From: Oscillospiraceae bacterium
GTDB taxonomy: Bacteria; Bacillota; Clostridia; Oscillospirales; Oscillospiraceae
Reading direction: 5' to 3'
Assembly (NCBI GenBank): GCA_017398685.1
Contig: JAFQFH010000030.1
Location: 1 to 36,487, forward strand
Length of the DNA: 36,487 nucleotides
The position numbers and the translations under genes are program-made. This document shows, one piece after another, positions 23,295 to 34,101 of the stretch (positions are counted from its first letter, which is position 1; each line of letters starts with the position of its first letter). The notes under the pieces were generated by a model. The model searched no databases. It saw only the letters and a list, made by a program, of their open reading frames with translations, and was not told the origin of the DNA.

Positions 23295-24092
23295 ATGGAA
23301 ACCATTTACATAGACAGTCTCTTTCTTCTCAATCTGGTGATAGACTATTTTTTGTGCCTTGTGTCGGCAAGGGTCTGCGGTGTGGTGCTGAGACGCTGGC
23401 GATATGCGCTGGCAGCTCTCATAGGCGCTTTGTACGCAGTAGGTATATACCTGCCCGGGCTTGGGTGGCTGGGGCTTCCTGCCGCGAAGCTTTGTCTCTG
23501 GCTTATTATGGCGCTGGCAGCCTATGGTGGAGAAGAGCGTATGCTTCGCTGTGGGGTGGTATTTGCAGCCGTGTCGGCAGCCTTCGGTGGCTTTATATGG
23601 GCTTTGCAGCTGGCAGGAGGCCGCCCCGCTTTTGATATGCGCACGCTTCTTTTGTCCTTCACTCTTTGCTACGCTACGCTGCGGCTTATCTTCGGCGGCA
23701 AGGCAAGGCTTGCCGAGGAGAAGCGTATCAAGGTGGAGCTTTGGTTGGGAGGGCGCACAGCCGAGTTCATGGCCCTTGTGGACACGGGAAATCAGCTTAC
23801 AGACCCTGTTTCCGGCAAGGCGGTGATGGTAGTCTCCCCGCAGGCAGTGGAGCCGCTTTTTCCCCACCATACAGAGCTTCTGGAGCTGGAGGGGGTTGAG
23901 ATGCTTCAAAGTGCCGATGCCGTTGACGGGCTCAGGGGCAGGTTCCGGCTTATCCCCTATTCCAGTGTGGGCGGCAGTGGGCTTCTCTGCGCTTTTCATC
24001 CGGATAAAGCCAGATGCGGAGAAAGAGAGCTTGAGATAATGGCGGCAATATCCAAAAACGCCGCAGGAGACGGATTTCAGGCCATTATTTGA
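23295..24092 (+). CDS. spoIIGA: Sigma-E processing aspartic peptidase SpoIIGA
   Basis: This 265-residue membrane protease is needed in the mother cell to cut the pro-sequence from sigma-E. About five N-terminal membrane spans (1-130) are followed by a cytoplasmic aspartic protease domain with the catalytic motif [11 protein letters not shown] (D163). The start [16 protein letters not shown] is typical. It is followed 13 bases later by its substrate gene, the universal spoIIGA-sigE arrangement. No good ribosome-binding site is seen. The TATAAT lies so close that transcription may start at or near the ATG, so translation initiation here is unusual. The frame cannot begin later without losing the first span. 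Confidence 0.93.
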
Positions 24093-24105
24093 GAAAGGAC
24101 CGACC

Positions 24106-24828
24106 ATGCTTTGTAAACCCCAGATCATATTTTTGCGCGAGCAGCTTTTGAATCTTTTAGGGATAAAGGCTCCGCCCCTTTTTTACATAGGCGGCAGCGA
24201 CACCTTGCCGCCGCCTTTGGAACGATGTGCAGAGCAAAAGGCGCTGGAAGCTTTGGAAGCAGGAGATGAAAGCGCAAGGTCAAAGCTTATAGAGCACAAC
24301 CTGCGCCTTGTGGTATACATCTCCAAGCGTTTTGAAAACACCGGCATAAATATCGAGGACCTTATCTCCATAGGCACCATCGGGCTTATAAAAGCGGTAA
24401 ACACCTTCAACAGCTCCAAAAACATAAAGCTCGCCACCTACGCCTCCCGCTGCATTGAAAACGAGATACTCATGTATCTTCGCAAAATAAGCTCACAGCG
24501 CACGGAGATAAGCTTTGACGAGCCCTTGAACACCGACTGGGACGGAAATGAGCTTTTGCTTTCTGACATTCTGGGCACCGACGAGGACGAGGTGGCCCGC
24601 CCCATGGAGGATGACGCTGAAAAGCACATGCTGATGGAGGCCATATCCACCCTTTCCCAGAGAGAGCAGAGCATCATACTCATGCGCTTTGGTCTGCCCG
24701 ACGGGCAGGAATACACCCAGAAAGAGGTGGCGGACATCATGGGCATCTCTCAAAGCTACATAAGCCGCCTGGAGAAAAGGATAATAGAGCAGCTTAGACG
24801 GGAAATGCTGAAAATGATGCAGGTGTAA
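24106..24828 (+). CDS. sigE: RNA polymerase sporulation sigma factor pro-sigma-E
   Basis: This 240-residue sigma-70-family factor directs early mother-cell gene expression in sporulation. It carries the N-terminal pro-sequence (about 27 residues), ending just before [13 protein letters not shown], where SpoIIGA cuts in Bacillus. Region 2 reads [20 protein letters not shown] and [17 protein letters not shown]. The [18 protein letters not shown] block is sigma-E specific. Region 4 ends with the helix-turn-helix [19 protein letters not shown]. Both processing partners are adjacent. sigG, which often follows, is not here; a terminator comes instead. Confidence 0.96.
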
Positions 24829-27711: not shown

Positions 27712-29082
27712 TTATTCCCAGAATTCACTGCCGCCGCAGTGCTTTACAATTACCTGACGGATATCCAGCATGGCAGAGTAGGTGGGCATGATGAACACAG
27801 GGCAGTCCTCCCCTTTCATCCACTCAACCAGCTTTTCACAGTCGCGCTCGGTGACAATGGCGTTTTCGTCAAAGCCTGCGTACTTGAGACGAAGGCGCAT
27901 TTCCTCGGCTCTGTCGCCGGATACAACAAGGCTTTTTATGCGGCCTGAAAGTGCGGTGAGCTGTTCAAAGTCCGTATCCCATATCCACGAGATGTCCTTG
28001 CCGTCGCCGGTGCGGTCATTGAGGCTTATCACAAGGGAGAAGCGCTCTTTGATGTTGGAGAGAAACTCCATGACAAGGTTGCAGCCGGTAGGATTTTTCA
28101 CCAGCATCATGCGGGCTCCCGCGCCTATGTCAAACTGCTCCATGCGTCCAAAGCCGCATTTGAAGCCGGAGAGCGCCTGTACCGCAGCGTCCTTGTCCAT
28201 GCCCATTGCACATACGGCAGCGCAGGCGGCAGCGGCGTTATATATATTGTACATGGCCGGGAGATTGACCGTGACCATTCTCCGTTCGCCCTGCATATCC
28301 ATCACAATGGAGCTGCCCTCGGTGCTCTGATGGGCAATGTCCACCACGGCAAAGTCCGCTTCCGGGCGGCGGTGGCCGCAGTTGGGGCAGAAAAAGCCGC
28401 CCAGATGGCCGAAGTTGATATATTCAAATTCATACTCATGGCCGCAGCGGATGCAGATATCACCATCGGATATTTCGGCCTTTTCCTTATTGGGGGCTGC
28501 ACCGCGGTTCATGCCGAAGTACAAAACCCTGTTGGGCATATCATCGGCAAGGGACGAGGTGAGAGAACAGTCCGCATTGAGGCAGAGAGTGGCCGTGGGC
28601 ACAGAGCCGATGGCTTTTTTTATGCTGTCTCTTGTGTGGGCAAGGTCGCCGAAGCGGTCCAGCTGGTCACGGAAGAGGTTTGTGACTACGATGACCTTGG
28701 GCTGCATCTGGGCAAATACCCTGACGGAAGCGGCCTCGTCACATTCAATCACCGCGTAGTCGCAGCGGTTTTTTCCGCTCAAGCTGCTGTTTATGACAAA
28801 CTCCGTGGTGATGCCGTCAATAAGATTAGCACCCGAGCGATTGGAGAAATACTTCTTTCCTTCCCGCTCAAAAGCCTCCTCCACCATGCGGCTGCAGGTG
28901 GTTTTGCCGTTGGTGCCAGTTATGACCACAGTCTGAACGTTTTTTGCCAGAACGGAAAGAAGCTGCGGGCATATCTTAAGGGCATATCTGCCGGGCATGG
29001 CAGTGCCGCCACGGTGCATAAGCCTTGATACAAGGCGCAGCGCCTTGCACACGATGATGGCAAATACTACTTTTAATTTCAT
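27712..29082 (-). CDS. murT: Lipid II isoglutaminyl synthase, ligase subunit MurT
   Basis: This 456-residue Mur-ligase-like protein activates the gamma-carboxylate... of the stem-peptide D-Glu (its alpha-carboxylate in lipid II) for amidation with ammonia supplied by GatD. It shows the P-loop GTNGKTT (56-62), a four-cysteine zinc ribbon (C210, C213, C232, C235) characteristic of MurT, and the C-terminal DUF1727 region with NDRTGDGKDISWIWD. A GAGGTG site lies before the ATG and a plausible promoter upstream. It is the first gene of a four-gene unit. The carboxylate amidated is known from other Bacillota and is not shown here. Confidence 0.94.
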   Translation of the reverse strand: MKLKVVFAIIVCKALRLVSRLMHRGGTAMPGRYALKICPQLLSVLAKNVQTVVITGTNGKTTCSRMVEEAFEREGKKYFSNRSGANLIDGITTEFVINSSLSGKNRCDYAVIECDEAASVRVFAQMQPKVIVVTNLFRDQLDRFGDLAHTRDSIKKAIGSVPTATLCLNADCSLTSSLADDMPNRVLYFGMNRGAAPNKEKAEISDGDICIRCGHEYEFEYINFGHLGGFFCPNCGHRRPEADFAVVDIAHQSTEGSSIVMDMQGERRMVTVNLPAMYNIYNAAAACAAVCAMGMDKDAAVQALSGFKCGFGRMEQFDIGAGARMMLVKNPTGCNLVMEFLSNIKERFSLVISLNDRTGDGKDISWIWDTDFEQLTALSGRIKSLVVSGDRAEEMRLRLKYAGFDENAIVTERDCEKLVEWMKGEDCPVFIMPTYSAMLDIRQVIVKHCGGSEFWE

Positions 29083-29173: not shown

Positions 29174-29208
29174 AAAAATAAGACGATGAAGCCATCGTCT
29201 TATTTTTT
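29174..29208. terminator. Terminator after the permuted binding-protein gene
   Basis: A perfect 15-bp stem (29174-29188 with 29193-29207) with a 4-base loop has AAAAA on one side and TTTTTT on the other, so it can work in either direction. It ends the four-gene unit 29220-34101 eleven bases after its last stop. Confidence 0.9.
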
Positions 29209-29219
29209 CGACAATATTA

Positions 29220-30032
29220 TCAGTGGCAATTGAAGTAATACAAGGCAGTGCTGTCTGTGAGGACAGTGTCGCATTTGCCGGAATAAAGATGTTCAAAGCA
29301 CTCCGTGGTGCCGCCGGCAAGTCTTGTTATCTGGCCCAGACGCTTTGACAGCTTGGGATCGGTATTGAGCGCCTCCAGTGCCTCCGGTGTGGAGCACATT
29401 GCCATATTCTTACCGTTGAGGCGCATGGAGTTCCAGACGGAAGAGCCGCTTCTGGTAGCAACCACGATGTCGTTTTTCACATAGGGGCCGTAGGGGGTGA
29501 AGTTGCCTTCGGCTATCTCCTCACGGGTGATGGCGATGCCGCCCCAGGCGCAGTCTATGTTGCCGGAGGAGAGCTCTATGTACACATTTTCCTTTTCAAT
29601 AGGCTGCATCTTCAAATTCCAGCCCAGCTTCTGGCACACGGCAATGGCCAGCTCCACATCAAAGCCCCAGTATTCCCCGTTTGAGATGTAGGCCATGGGG
29701 AAGGAGTTTATGTCAATGCCGATTATAAAGTCCTGTGGGGGCGGAGGCGTGAGCTCGGAAAGCGCTTCAACGCGACCCTTGAAGTCTATTATCTGCTCTC
29801 CGAACCACTTGGCTGTAAGCTCATGTACCCGTCCCTCACCTGCCAGAGTTTCTATGGCAGCGGTCACATAGAAATATGTGGGGTCATTGTTGCGGAAGGC
29901 CAGAAAATACTCCTGCTCCACGAGGGTCTGGAGGGTTTTCACACCGTAGCTCGTGCCGGTGCTGCCGCCGCAGGCCGCAAGGGAAAGAGCCATGGATAAA
30001 ATCAGCAGAATAAGAACAAGTTTCTTTATCAT
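29220..30032 (-). CDS. Lipoprotein with a circularly permuted family-3 solute-binding domain
   Basis: This 270-residue lipoprotein has a signal peptide with lipobox LAAC and acylated C21. Normal SBP_bac_3 proteins (e.g. GlnH) end with a strand-helix segment of the form YGIAF.KG...L......L...G....I..KWFG. Here that segment comes first (about 31-78: EYFLAFRNNDP...ETLAGEGRVHELTAKWFGE). A proline linker (96-99) follows, and then the usual N-terminal part: FIIGIDINSFPMAYISN, GYWGFDVELAIAVCQKLGW-like lobe 1, SSGNIDCAWGGIAITREE, and lobe 2 ending in CDTVLTDSTALYYF. The protein stops exactly where the normal family would cross back through the hinge. All pieces of the fold are present in rotated order. 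No ABC permease or ATPase gene is adjacent. It is last in the unit, 14 bases after the serine-hydrolase gene. Its ligand is unknown, perhaps an amino acid or peptide. Confidence 0.88.
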   Translation of the reverse strand: MIKKLVLILLILSMALSLAACGGSTGTSYGVKTLQTLVEQEYFLAFRNNDPTYFYVTAAIETLAGEGRVHELTAKWFGEQIIDFKGRVEALSELTPPPPQDFIIGIDINSFPMAYISNGEYWGFDVELAIAVCQKLGWNLKMQPIEKENVYIELSSGNIDCAWGGIAITREEIAEGNFTPYGPYVKNDIVVATRSGSSVWNSMRLNGKNMAMCSTPEALEALNTDPKLSKRLGQITRLAGGTTECFEHLYSGKCDTVLTDSTALYYFNCH

Positions 30033-32466: not shown

Positions 32467-34101
32467 TTATCCGCCGAACTCGCAGATATAGGCCATCTTC
32501 CCGCCGTACCACTGGGGGAACTCAGCGCAGGGGTCATGGCGGCTGTCATTGAAAAACCAGCCGTTATTGTACCAGAGAAGCACATAGTCTTCCAGAACGC
32601 CGTCGGAACTGTCCTGATAGGAAGGCTCACCTGCTGCCCAGGGAGTATAGGCCTGGTCGGAACCATCTTCCCAGATCATCTTGTCGTTTTCACGGCGACC
32701 GCCTATCCACAGCATACTGACACCGTTTTCCTCAGCAAGGGCAACGATTTCTGCAAACTCTTCCTCGTCATTGATGACTGCCAGATGTCCGCCCAGCTCA
32801 AAGCACTTGTCGCGGGCGTCGCTCCAGCTGATGTCTTCCTTGAAAAGCTCATAGCTGGGTTCCACAGGCTCCACAACGGGAGGTACGGTAGTCTCCTCAA
32901 GGCCGCCGGGCAGAGGAGTTGCGTCGGGAACAGGCTCCATGGTGGGGGCAGGCGTGATCTCCATGACATTGATGGGCTGCTGAAGCTGCTGCTGGACAAT
33001 CTGCTCCTGATTCATTTCAGGTCGGGAAGTGATATCCTTGATTATGGCATTGAATACTATTGCCGCCACCACAAGAAGGGCGCACAGTACCAAAAGGATC
33101 GCCACAGGTCTTCTTCTTCTGTTTTCCACGTCATCATCCTCCATCCTCATGCGCTGCTGCGCATTTTTTGAATATTGTACGGCCGGTCTCATATCAGCTG
33201 AATTTTTCAGCACCACCGGCTCAAGGTCGGGGTATCGCTCTTCGTATAGTCTTGGGACACGGTTTGCAGCTTCCCTTGCCGCAAAGCGGGCAAACTCCGC
33301 CTCGTAGACCCTGTCCTCCTCAAGCGCATCCACAAATTCTTCTTCCAGTTCAAATTCGTCCGGCTCTTCTTTCTCAGGTCTTTCGTCCTCAGGCAGATAG
33401 TCCTCCACCTGGAGCTGGGGCAGTTCTTCCTCTTCCTCCGGCACCTGAGAGAGTATCTCCTCCTCGGGCAGAGGCTCCTCCTCACCCTTTTCAATAATGG
33501 ATACCATCATACGCTCCAGATCGTTCAGATCATCGTCGTGCTTTTTGAAAATGCTCTCTGCGCTGGTGGCACCGCCCAGATAGAGGTTTTTAAGGCAGCT
33601 TTCCACAAGGGCGCGGAGCTCATCCATGCTCTGATATCTGTCGGCAGCCTTGAACTGGGTGGCCTTGCGGATAATATCGCCCAGCCTGCGGCCTGCGGCC
33701 TTGGGCACATCAAAGGGATCGCCGCTCATGCGCCTGAGCTGCGGGTCGCGGCACTCCCCCTCAAAGGGCAGCTTTCCTCCGGAGACTGCATAGTAAAGCA
33801 GCATGCCTATGGAATACACGTCCGCTGCGGGAGTGAGCTTATTGTTCCAGTACTGCTCGGGAGGGAGAAAATCCAGCTCCTGACCCTGCCAGTCAGCTCT
33901 GGAGGCGGGCCCTACAGCCAGCTCACCATCCTTGTTTTCGCTTATATTCTCAGGGTACACGCCGCCACGGTACACGCCTGCACCTGCGTCGGCCTTTACC
34001 CGTTCGCACAGCTTTATTATAAAGCGGCAAAGGGTTTCCCTGTCGTATTCAAGAATATTATTGCCCACGATCTGCGATGGATCGAACTGATACTTTTTCA
34101 C
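32467..34101 (-). CDS. Kinase C-lobe-like (pseudokinase) / transmembrane / C-type-lectin-like receptor protein
   Basis: This 544-residue protein starts with GTG; GGAGG lies 7 bases before it. Residues 1-175 resemble only the C-lobe of a Ser/Thr protein kinase. The catalytic loop reads RGGVYPEN (45-52) in place of HRDLKPEN. The DFG position reads VGP. The APE-like LPPEQ (79-83) and F-helix DVYSIG (94-99) are kept. There is no glycine-rich loop or ATP lysine, so it is probably catalytically dead. A Glu-rich acidic linker (about 205-265), one membrane span (331-354) and a Pro/Thr stalk (about 380-415) follow. The outer domain (417-544) is C-type-lectin-like: C433, C525 and C540, GGHLAVIND, LWIGG and WFFND. 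It heads the four-gene unit. The ligand and partners are unknown. Confidence 0.85.
   Translation of the reverse strand: MKKYQFDPSQIVGNNILEYDRETLCRFIIKLCERVKADAGAGVYRGGVYPENISENKDGELAVGPASRADWQGQELDFLPPEQYWNNKLTPAADVYSIGMLLYYAVSGGKLPFEGECRDPQLRRMSGDPFDVPKAAGRRLGDIIRKATQFKAADRYQSMDELRALVESCLKNLYLGGATSAESIFKKHDDDLNDLERMMVSIIEKGEEEPLPEEEILSQVPEEEEELPQLQVEDYLPEDERPEKEEPDEFELEEEFVDALEEDRVYEAEFARFAAREAANRVPRLYEERYPDLEPVVLKNSADMRPAVQYSKNAQQRMRMEDDDVENRRRRPVAILLVLCALLVVAAIVFNAIIKDITSRPEMNQEQIVQQQLQQPINVMEITPAPTMEPVPDATPLPGGLEETTVPPVVEPVEPSYELFKEDISWSDARDKCFELGGHLAVINDEEEFAEIVALAEENGVSMLWIGGRRENDKMIWEDGSDQAYTPWAAGEPSYQDSSDGVLEDYVLLWYNNGWFFNDSRHDPCAEFPQWYGGKMAYICEFGG

Follow-up and report, generated by a model that had tools for sequence, protein, structure and literature searches.

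Domain order of the protein encoded in the window

The 36,487-nucleotide contig JAFQFH010000030.1 of an Oscillospiraceae bacterium (assembly GCA_017398685.1; the whole contig is referred to below as the window) raises the question of whether one of its genes encodes a natural circular permutant of a solute-binding protein (SBP), and what such a protein might do. The gene is an open reading frame (ORF) for 270 amino acids (29220..30032, minus strand), identified as a circularly permuted family-3 solute-binding lipoprotein by ORF analysis, Pfam, phmmer and a rotation scan. The original prediction, made from the sequence alone, had proposed such a permutation, with no piece of the fold lost.

Direct reading revealed a signal peptide with a lipobox at residues 1-21 (29970..30032, minus strand), in which LAAC occupies positions 18-21. 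Cys21 does not vary across 54 aligned rows, among them that of the window, which identifies the product as a bacterial lipoprotein. Next comes a segment (residues 29-82; 29787..29948, minus strand) corresponding to the C-terminal strand-strand-helix-helix of canonical proteins, here N-terminal and termed the C-piece; it was assigned by phmmer, split profiles, rotation and the elements of an AlphaFold2 (AF2) model. A connector (residues 83-100; 29733..29786, minus strand; alignment and connector counts) links the former C-terminus to the former N-terminus and leads into the body (residues 101-268; 29229..29732, minus strand), which extends from the N-terminal start of canonical proteins up to and including the last helix ahead of the hinge-2 strand (Pfam, phmmer, split profiles, VIA-align).

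Pfam family PF00497 matched the body only (residues 103-210, E 3.3e-21, 75.9 bits; gathering cut-off 26.4). Comparison with PDB chains using phmmer aligned two parts of the protein with polar-amino-acid SBPs: residues ~102-267 with the first ~165 residues of these chains, and residues ~36-83 with the last ~48, the latter as a weak second domain that alone is not significant. Thus, in 3hv1, residues 102-266 of the window protein correspond to 23-188 and residues 45-83 to 214-253; in 8hnj, residues 104-267 correspond to 4-161 and residues 36-83 to 176-224. The N-terminal C-piece is plain in other permuted relatives, e.g. that of locus L068 (...EEYGIGFRKGDELCNIVNAAMKVLKADGTLAQISEKWFG...).

With a profile built from 77 canonical relatives, the native order was recognized as two domains (119.4 + 14.8 bits). 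Rotated versions starting at residue 86-97 gave a single domain of 143.4 bits, covering model positions 5-231 of 233. Moving the N-terminal piece behind the body gave 142.2 bits, a score reached by none of 200 shuffles of the piece (mean 119.2, maximum 124.8). Circular permutation is therefore borne out by the rotation scan, the shuffles and the two-part phmmer match, and at the sequence level no fold piece has been lost. The match of residues 31-78 to the C-terminus of the family, singled out in the original prediction as its check, was weak in phmmer and clear in the rotation and shuffle tests. The canonical linear order (body then C-piece) was not found in the window protein, all sequence elements of the two-lobe domain are present, and homologues occur in both orders without a lost segment, as in a natural permutant. 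We are highly confident that the ORF encodes a circularly permuted family-3 SBP, and just as confident that this permutation has recurred (see below).

When the protein is aligned with GlnH-type chains, the cut falls after the last helix of the body and ahead of the strand that leads to hinge 2 (GlnBP chain residues ~162-175). Since we take the small domain of GlnBP to be residues 90-180, the cut would fall on lobe 2 and not on the hinge itself. The new termini, which had been placed near the hinge, would instead lie in the loop that precedes the final strand of lobe 2.

Distribution of permuted and canonical proteins

Near full-length matches without inner stops (E 1.7e-95 or better) were found in 56 of the 61 genomes of the window genus, that of the window included; two of the remaining five gave no match and three gave weak matches to the body only. 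The copies conserve the lipobox and the domain at 53-98% identity, and 21 named records from several series of metagenome-assembled genomes also carry the gene. The gene is an orphan in the window, which is one of the 85 contigs of its assembly, so that a misjoined or decaying SBP gene had to be considered. An assembly artefact or pseudogene is refuted by the conservation within the genus, the named records and the invariant Cys, and its probability is negligible.

At the family level, 43 of 200 genomes matched at E<=1e-25, and the N-terminal piece was included in 43 of the 44 matches; 12 of 295 genomes of the order matched. A 54-sequence profile matched 148 of 291 class genomes and 134 of 295 order genomes, where most of the matches listed span the body alone, as canonical proteins do. 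Partial matches in the class search (e.g. G654, G747, G779, G617 and G739) were counted neither way, and there are further matches beyond those listed. Four genomes (G654, G747, G779 and G425) have matches to approximately model positions 22-193 with one internal stop, possibly adjacent SBP genes or broken permuted ones. Across the phylum, 138 of 348 genomes gave a match, but none of the matches outside the class was full-span (start <=40, end >=250 of the model); G861 and G1125 show partial spans. All 29 phylum loci fetched (L190-L218, one of them within the class) have the body-C order.

Split profiles were used to classify the architectures of 197 distinct ORFs as C-piece then body (116), body then C-piece (77), body-C-body-C (3) and body-C-body (1); these ORFs were chosen by similarity to the permuted profile, so the counts give no estimate of prevalence. 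Both homologues with the same rotated order and tandem SBP_bac_3 proteins, which the original prediction had proposed to look for, are thus present among the relatives.

Further candidates were rejected. L136 and L137 had appeared to carry a C-piece at both ends, as intermediates would, but their Thr/Ala-rich tether was aligned by chance and the split profiles classify them as canonical; the full-span class matches G613 and G553, which correspond to these loci, are ruled out as permuted with them. In L066/L067, a supposed second C-piece in 55 extra C-terminal residues proved on reading to be a low-complexity tail.

Consequences of the rearrangement

The canonical layout is signal-Cys-tether-body-C-piece, and the permuted layout is signal-Cys-C-piece-connector-body. 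The distance from Cys to the domain, measured to the edges of hidden Markov model domains and not on structures, has a median of 23 residues in canonical ORFs (68 of 77, with a recognized lipobox) and 6 residues in permuted ORFs (104 of 116; range 0 to 73). The inner connector of permuted ORFs has a median of 21 residues (n=116), close to the length of the former tether. The permuted ORFs have the cut in common: in 113 of 116, the match to the body profile reaches to within 3 positions of the profile's end, and in 114 of 116 no more than 12 residues come after it.

Relative to the canonical order, the rearrangement has moved the C-piece directly behind the lipobox, with a tether-like stretch now joining it to the body. 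Since the new ends appear to lie on lobe 2, the lipid anchor would shift there from lobe 1, with its tether shortened from 23 to about 6 residues. Because the rearrangement recurs at one loop, also inside an otherwise conserved permease-ATPase operon, the permuted order very probably still permits folding and transport.

Recurrence of the permutation

A careful tree of 61 rows, picked by hand so as to retain notable pairs and based on body and C-piece joined in rotated order, requires 13 switches of order within the class, of which 11 are forced by well-supported branches; 0% of 200 bootstraps had a single switch. A quick tree of 113 rows requires 12 switches, at least 6 of them forced; its alignment had been thinned of any row with more than half of its 3-mers in common with a retained one (L097 was lost thereby). 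Since the phylum loci outside the class are all body-C, the canonical order appears to be ancestral; the number of switches is independent of this polarity.

Some of the switches appear to be recent, and the clearest cases are visible independently of any tree. Permuted L097 and canonical L118, from one genus, share 79% identity in the body and 72% in the C-piece. At the DNA level, blastn aligned them as two blocks in swapped order (78.5% over 508 columns and 73% over 156 columns), and an order swap is likewise visible in the DNA of L133 and L138. Permuted L095 shares 77% (body) and 64% (C-piece) identity with canonical proteins and at most 46% with any other permuted protein. One conserved four-gene operon occurs with either order, permuted in L127 and canonical in L143 and L144: the L095/L127 operon shares with these two loci 73-74% identity in the body, 74-78% in the permease, 66-69% in the ATPase and 36-38% in the next gene.

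It is conceivable that there was a single ancient permutation, and that the order was kept while resident canonical genes overwrote body and C-piece piecewise by recombination. Such exchange is possible, since canonical and permuted SBPs coexist, even side by side (locus L232). It would require two separate overwrites per case from one donor subfamily, L095 and L097 resembling the same canonical relatives in both parts. Furthermore, a single origin, with the 29 permuted rows of the joined alignment held together, cost 792 log units and was rejected by the approximately unbiased test (p 9.9e-6), in which recombination is not part of the model. We regard piecewise overwriting as improbable. Repeated permutation is the reading that we favour, with moderate confidence in its full form: a recurrent evolutionary switch, with about eleven or more order changes in one class, at the same loop and in some cases recent within a genus or operon, each of which moves the anchor between lobes and shortens the tether. 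It may be selected or driven by a recurring DNA mechanism. A selective reason is perhaps offered by a homodimeric GlnP permease accepting either lobe orientation.

Duplication followed by trimming is a plausible origin, in which tandem in-frame SBPs would be the first step. No intermediate of the C-body-C type was found among the 197 classified ORFs. Loci L177 (G510:C2), L220 (G524:C151) and L221 (G429:C84) contain two family-3 SBP units followed by permease sequence, and the two units of L177 are near-identical, i.e. a recent in-frame tandem duplication.

Genomic context and putative role

Among the 42 distinct permuted genes outside the clade of the window protein (the first SBP of L160, also scored as permuted but not among the aligned rows, was excluded), 34 are followed by GlnP and GlnQ, four by GlnP only and four by neither. 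Since 34 of 42 head GlnP-GlnQ operons and most keep the Arg of the TxER motif, these SBPs very probably work as ordinary importer receptors, as far as gene order and conserved residues can tell. In locus L232 (G378:C43), two SBP-GlnP-GlnQ operons lie in tandem, the first with a canonical SBP and the second with a permuted one of a different subfamily.

The window clade is one well-supported group (28 rows with a Shimodaira-Hasegawa-like approximate likelihood ratio test (SH-aLRT) value of 99 in the 113-row tree; 8 rows with 100/100 in the 61-row tree). In other genera, 17 of 24 loci have the clade member downstream of an SBP1-GlnP-GlnQ operon, whose SBP1 is canonical in 13 cases and permuted in 4; in 10 of the 17 the member is directly adjacent to GlnQ, and in the rest it is 0.7-1.4 kb away. 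One further locus has GlnQ alone at a contig edge.

No match to GlnP or GlnQ was found in the window. The window genome contains SBP-GlnP-GlnQ sets with canonical SBPs on contigs C30 and C70, unlinked to the window gene, and neither set has a second SBP next to it within the stretches fetched (14 and 12 kb). The C30 SBP groups with the SBP1s of operons that carry the window clade elsewhere (SH-aLRT 100, 113-row tree). The C30 set also has the same kind of neighbours as locus L255 (IMGVR_UViG_3300028326_000340), the only locus obtained from a scan of viral contigs, in which, on reading, a permuted SBP lies beside NifS-, NifU- and Rrf2-like genes; L255 is probably bacterial DNA misfiled as viral.

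The residues of the ligand site set the clade apart. The TxER Arg, which we take to be the ligand of the amino-acid carboxylate, is kept in 67 of 83 canonical units and 31 of 41 other permuted ones, but in 0 of 27 window-clade rows from other genera and 0 of 45 from the window genus, and the Ser of the GSS motif is present in only 1 of 72 clade rows. The Asp near the end of the body, presumably the ligand of the amino group, is kept in 83 of 83 canonical units, 41 of 41 other permuted ones, 17 of 27 clade rows from other genera and 45 of 45 from the window genus (62 of 72 for the clade). The clade may therefore bind another ligand or none.

In the window, a serine hydrolase gene of the Beta-lactamase2 family (PF13354; 30047..31735, minus strand; profile match and SxxK) lies 14 bases upstream of the SBP gene. 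Its product comprises a signal, the SxxK domain, SNN, a coiled coil, one predicted membrane span and a charged Arg-rich tail, the coiled coil, span and tail being assigned by reading and a simple hydropathy count. Such a hydrolase lies upstream on the same strand in 48 of 53 loci of the window genus (window included; some genes were fetched twice), and SxxK is conserved in 48 of 48 aligned sequences. The window clade would thus descend from an accessory second SBP behind an SBP1-GlnP-GlnQ operon, and in the window genus the gene would have left that operon and become paired with a membrane-anchored serine hydrolase. We tentatively propose that the protein is a surface receptor with altered specificity and that it serves either one of the GlnP-GlnQ pairs of its genome in trans or the hydrolase.

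The first option, an accessory SBP that still feeds the permease with an altered ligand, is possible, at somewhat below even odds. The position of the clade behind SBP1-GlnP-GlnQ in other genera agrees with it, as does the retention in the window genome of the C30 operon, without this gene and with an SBP1 of the matching group. It has against it the lack of a physical link in the window and a search of the 21 named loci plus the window, whose flanks are unequal in length, which gave no GlnP and only ATPases with 24-36% identity; the residue loss, moreover, argues against conventional binding of a standard amino acid. The original prediction had suggested that, lacking a neighbouring ABC permease, the protein may not be a transport protein. 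The lack of such a neighbour holds for the window copy, but its relatives are mostly located in or behind GlnP-GlnQ operons.

The second option, rather unlikely in our estimate, applies to the window genus: there the protein would sense the cell wall or present substrates for the hydrolase, binding peptidoglycan fragments like the SBP-like domain of MltF. The close and frequent gene pairing, the conserved SxxK and the loss of the amino-acid-site Arg agree with it, and MltF, whose structure has been solved with muropeptides, occurs both among the structural matches and among those of NCBIfam (E 4.4e-8).

Downstream of the SBP gene, a hairpin scan placed a terminator-like hairpin (15 pairs followed by a T-rich stretch; 29174..29207, minus strand) directly 3' of the stop codon. 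The scan gave 4 terminator-like sites against 4.0 expected in shuffles, the 15-pair one standing at the end of this gene, which suggests that the SBP gene ends its operon, separate from murT (27712-29082). In the nearest relative, L033 (SBP 97% identical), no murT match was found in the locus, and ABC-type ATPases 34-36% identical to GlnQ lie ~1.3 kb downstream; this is either a recent downstream change or a misjoin in one assembly. Elsewhere in the window, the protein encoded at 32467-34101 (minus strand) has an N-terminal part with weak similarity to kinases, apparently incomplete, then a single predicted membrane span and, at its C-terminus, a C-type lectin domain. At 23295-24828 (plus strand), a gene for a SpoIIGA-like peptidase precedes one for a sigma-70 factor, as in sporulation; the genome measures ~2.1 Mb.

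Assessment of the overall interpretation

Taken as a whole, the interpretation as a permuted, lipid-anchored SBP produced by a recurrent rearrangement, with the ancestry and, more tentatively, the role of an accessory receptor, is the best explanation and quite likely correct. The C-piece elements in the AF2 model (E31-38, E41-47, H52-65 and H68-77) follow the expected order of strand, strand, helix, helix.

Several points count against it. The AF2 model is middling (predicted local distance difference test 79.8, predicted template modelling score 0.76; 22 close sequences). The best Foldseek match has a template modelling score of only ~0.4, and neither these matches nor those of VIA-align, a sequential aligner whose matches mostly cover residues ~97-270, test the N-terminal piece. 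The packing of the C-piece on lobe 1 is a prediction from sequence, and the anchor shift to lobe 2 depends on the assumed limits of GlnBP. The tether lengths carry the spread and domain-edge measurement given above. As regards recurrence, the neighbourhoods of L097 and L118 differ, and certain switches may represent reversals or overwriting by gene conversion and not new permutations. As regards role, 6 of the 24 clade loci of other genera have no upstream GlnP-GlnQ, 5 of the 53 genus loci have no hydrolase match, and the putative link to the hydrolase derives from gene order only.

Comparison with known systems

To our knowledge, most known cases of natural circular permutation are single, old events that separate distantly related proteins. 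In the present family, normal and permuted proteins form close pairs several times over, mostly in importer operons, making the steps of permutation directly testable, including the need for duplication intermediates and the effect on a binding protein of an anchor moved between lobes. Linear profiles detect just part of such a permuted SBP. For SBP-based biosensors, these proteins provide permutation points that natural evolution has already tested. A literature search that left most subscription journals out of reach gave no report of a permuted family-3 SBP, so that absence is unproven.

Canonical family-3 SBPs (PF00497; 3hv1, 4ohn and GlnH) are the best sequence and structural matches and contain the same fold elements in sequence, as well as a recognized lipobox in 68 of 77 canonical relatives. 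The window protein differs from them in its N-terminal C-piece, its shorter lipid tether and the Arg (TxER) and Ser (GSS) lost in its clade.

In the GlnPQ transporter, GlnP carries the tandem SBD1-SBD2 (6h30). Head-to-tail SBPs of this kind, such as those of L177, L220 and L221, contain the same C-piece-to-body junction, but they keep two complete domains, whereas permuted proteins keep exactly one. The membrane-bound lytic transglycosylase MltF (5aa2, 4p0g) also has an SBP-like fold, with cell-wall ligands and outside transport; it differs in its canonical order, with matched ranges as in ordinary SBPs, and matches less well than these.

A precedent is the circular permutation among glycine-betaine-binding proteins (2B4L, 1R9L and 1SW1; OpuAC, ProX) and molybdate-binding proteins, identified via CPSARST (PMC2395249). 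Those cases are likewise natural permutations among ABC-type SBPs, but they concern other SBP families, with pairs below 24% identity found from structures. The family-3 permutants described here include pairs up to ~79% identical and arose many times, at one loop and in one class, also inside a conserved operon. Permutation among SBPs is thus already known; its recurrence in close relatives would be the surprising part.
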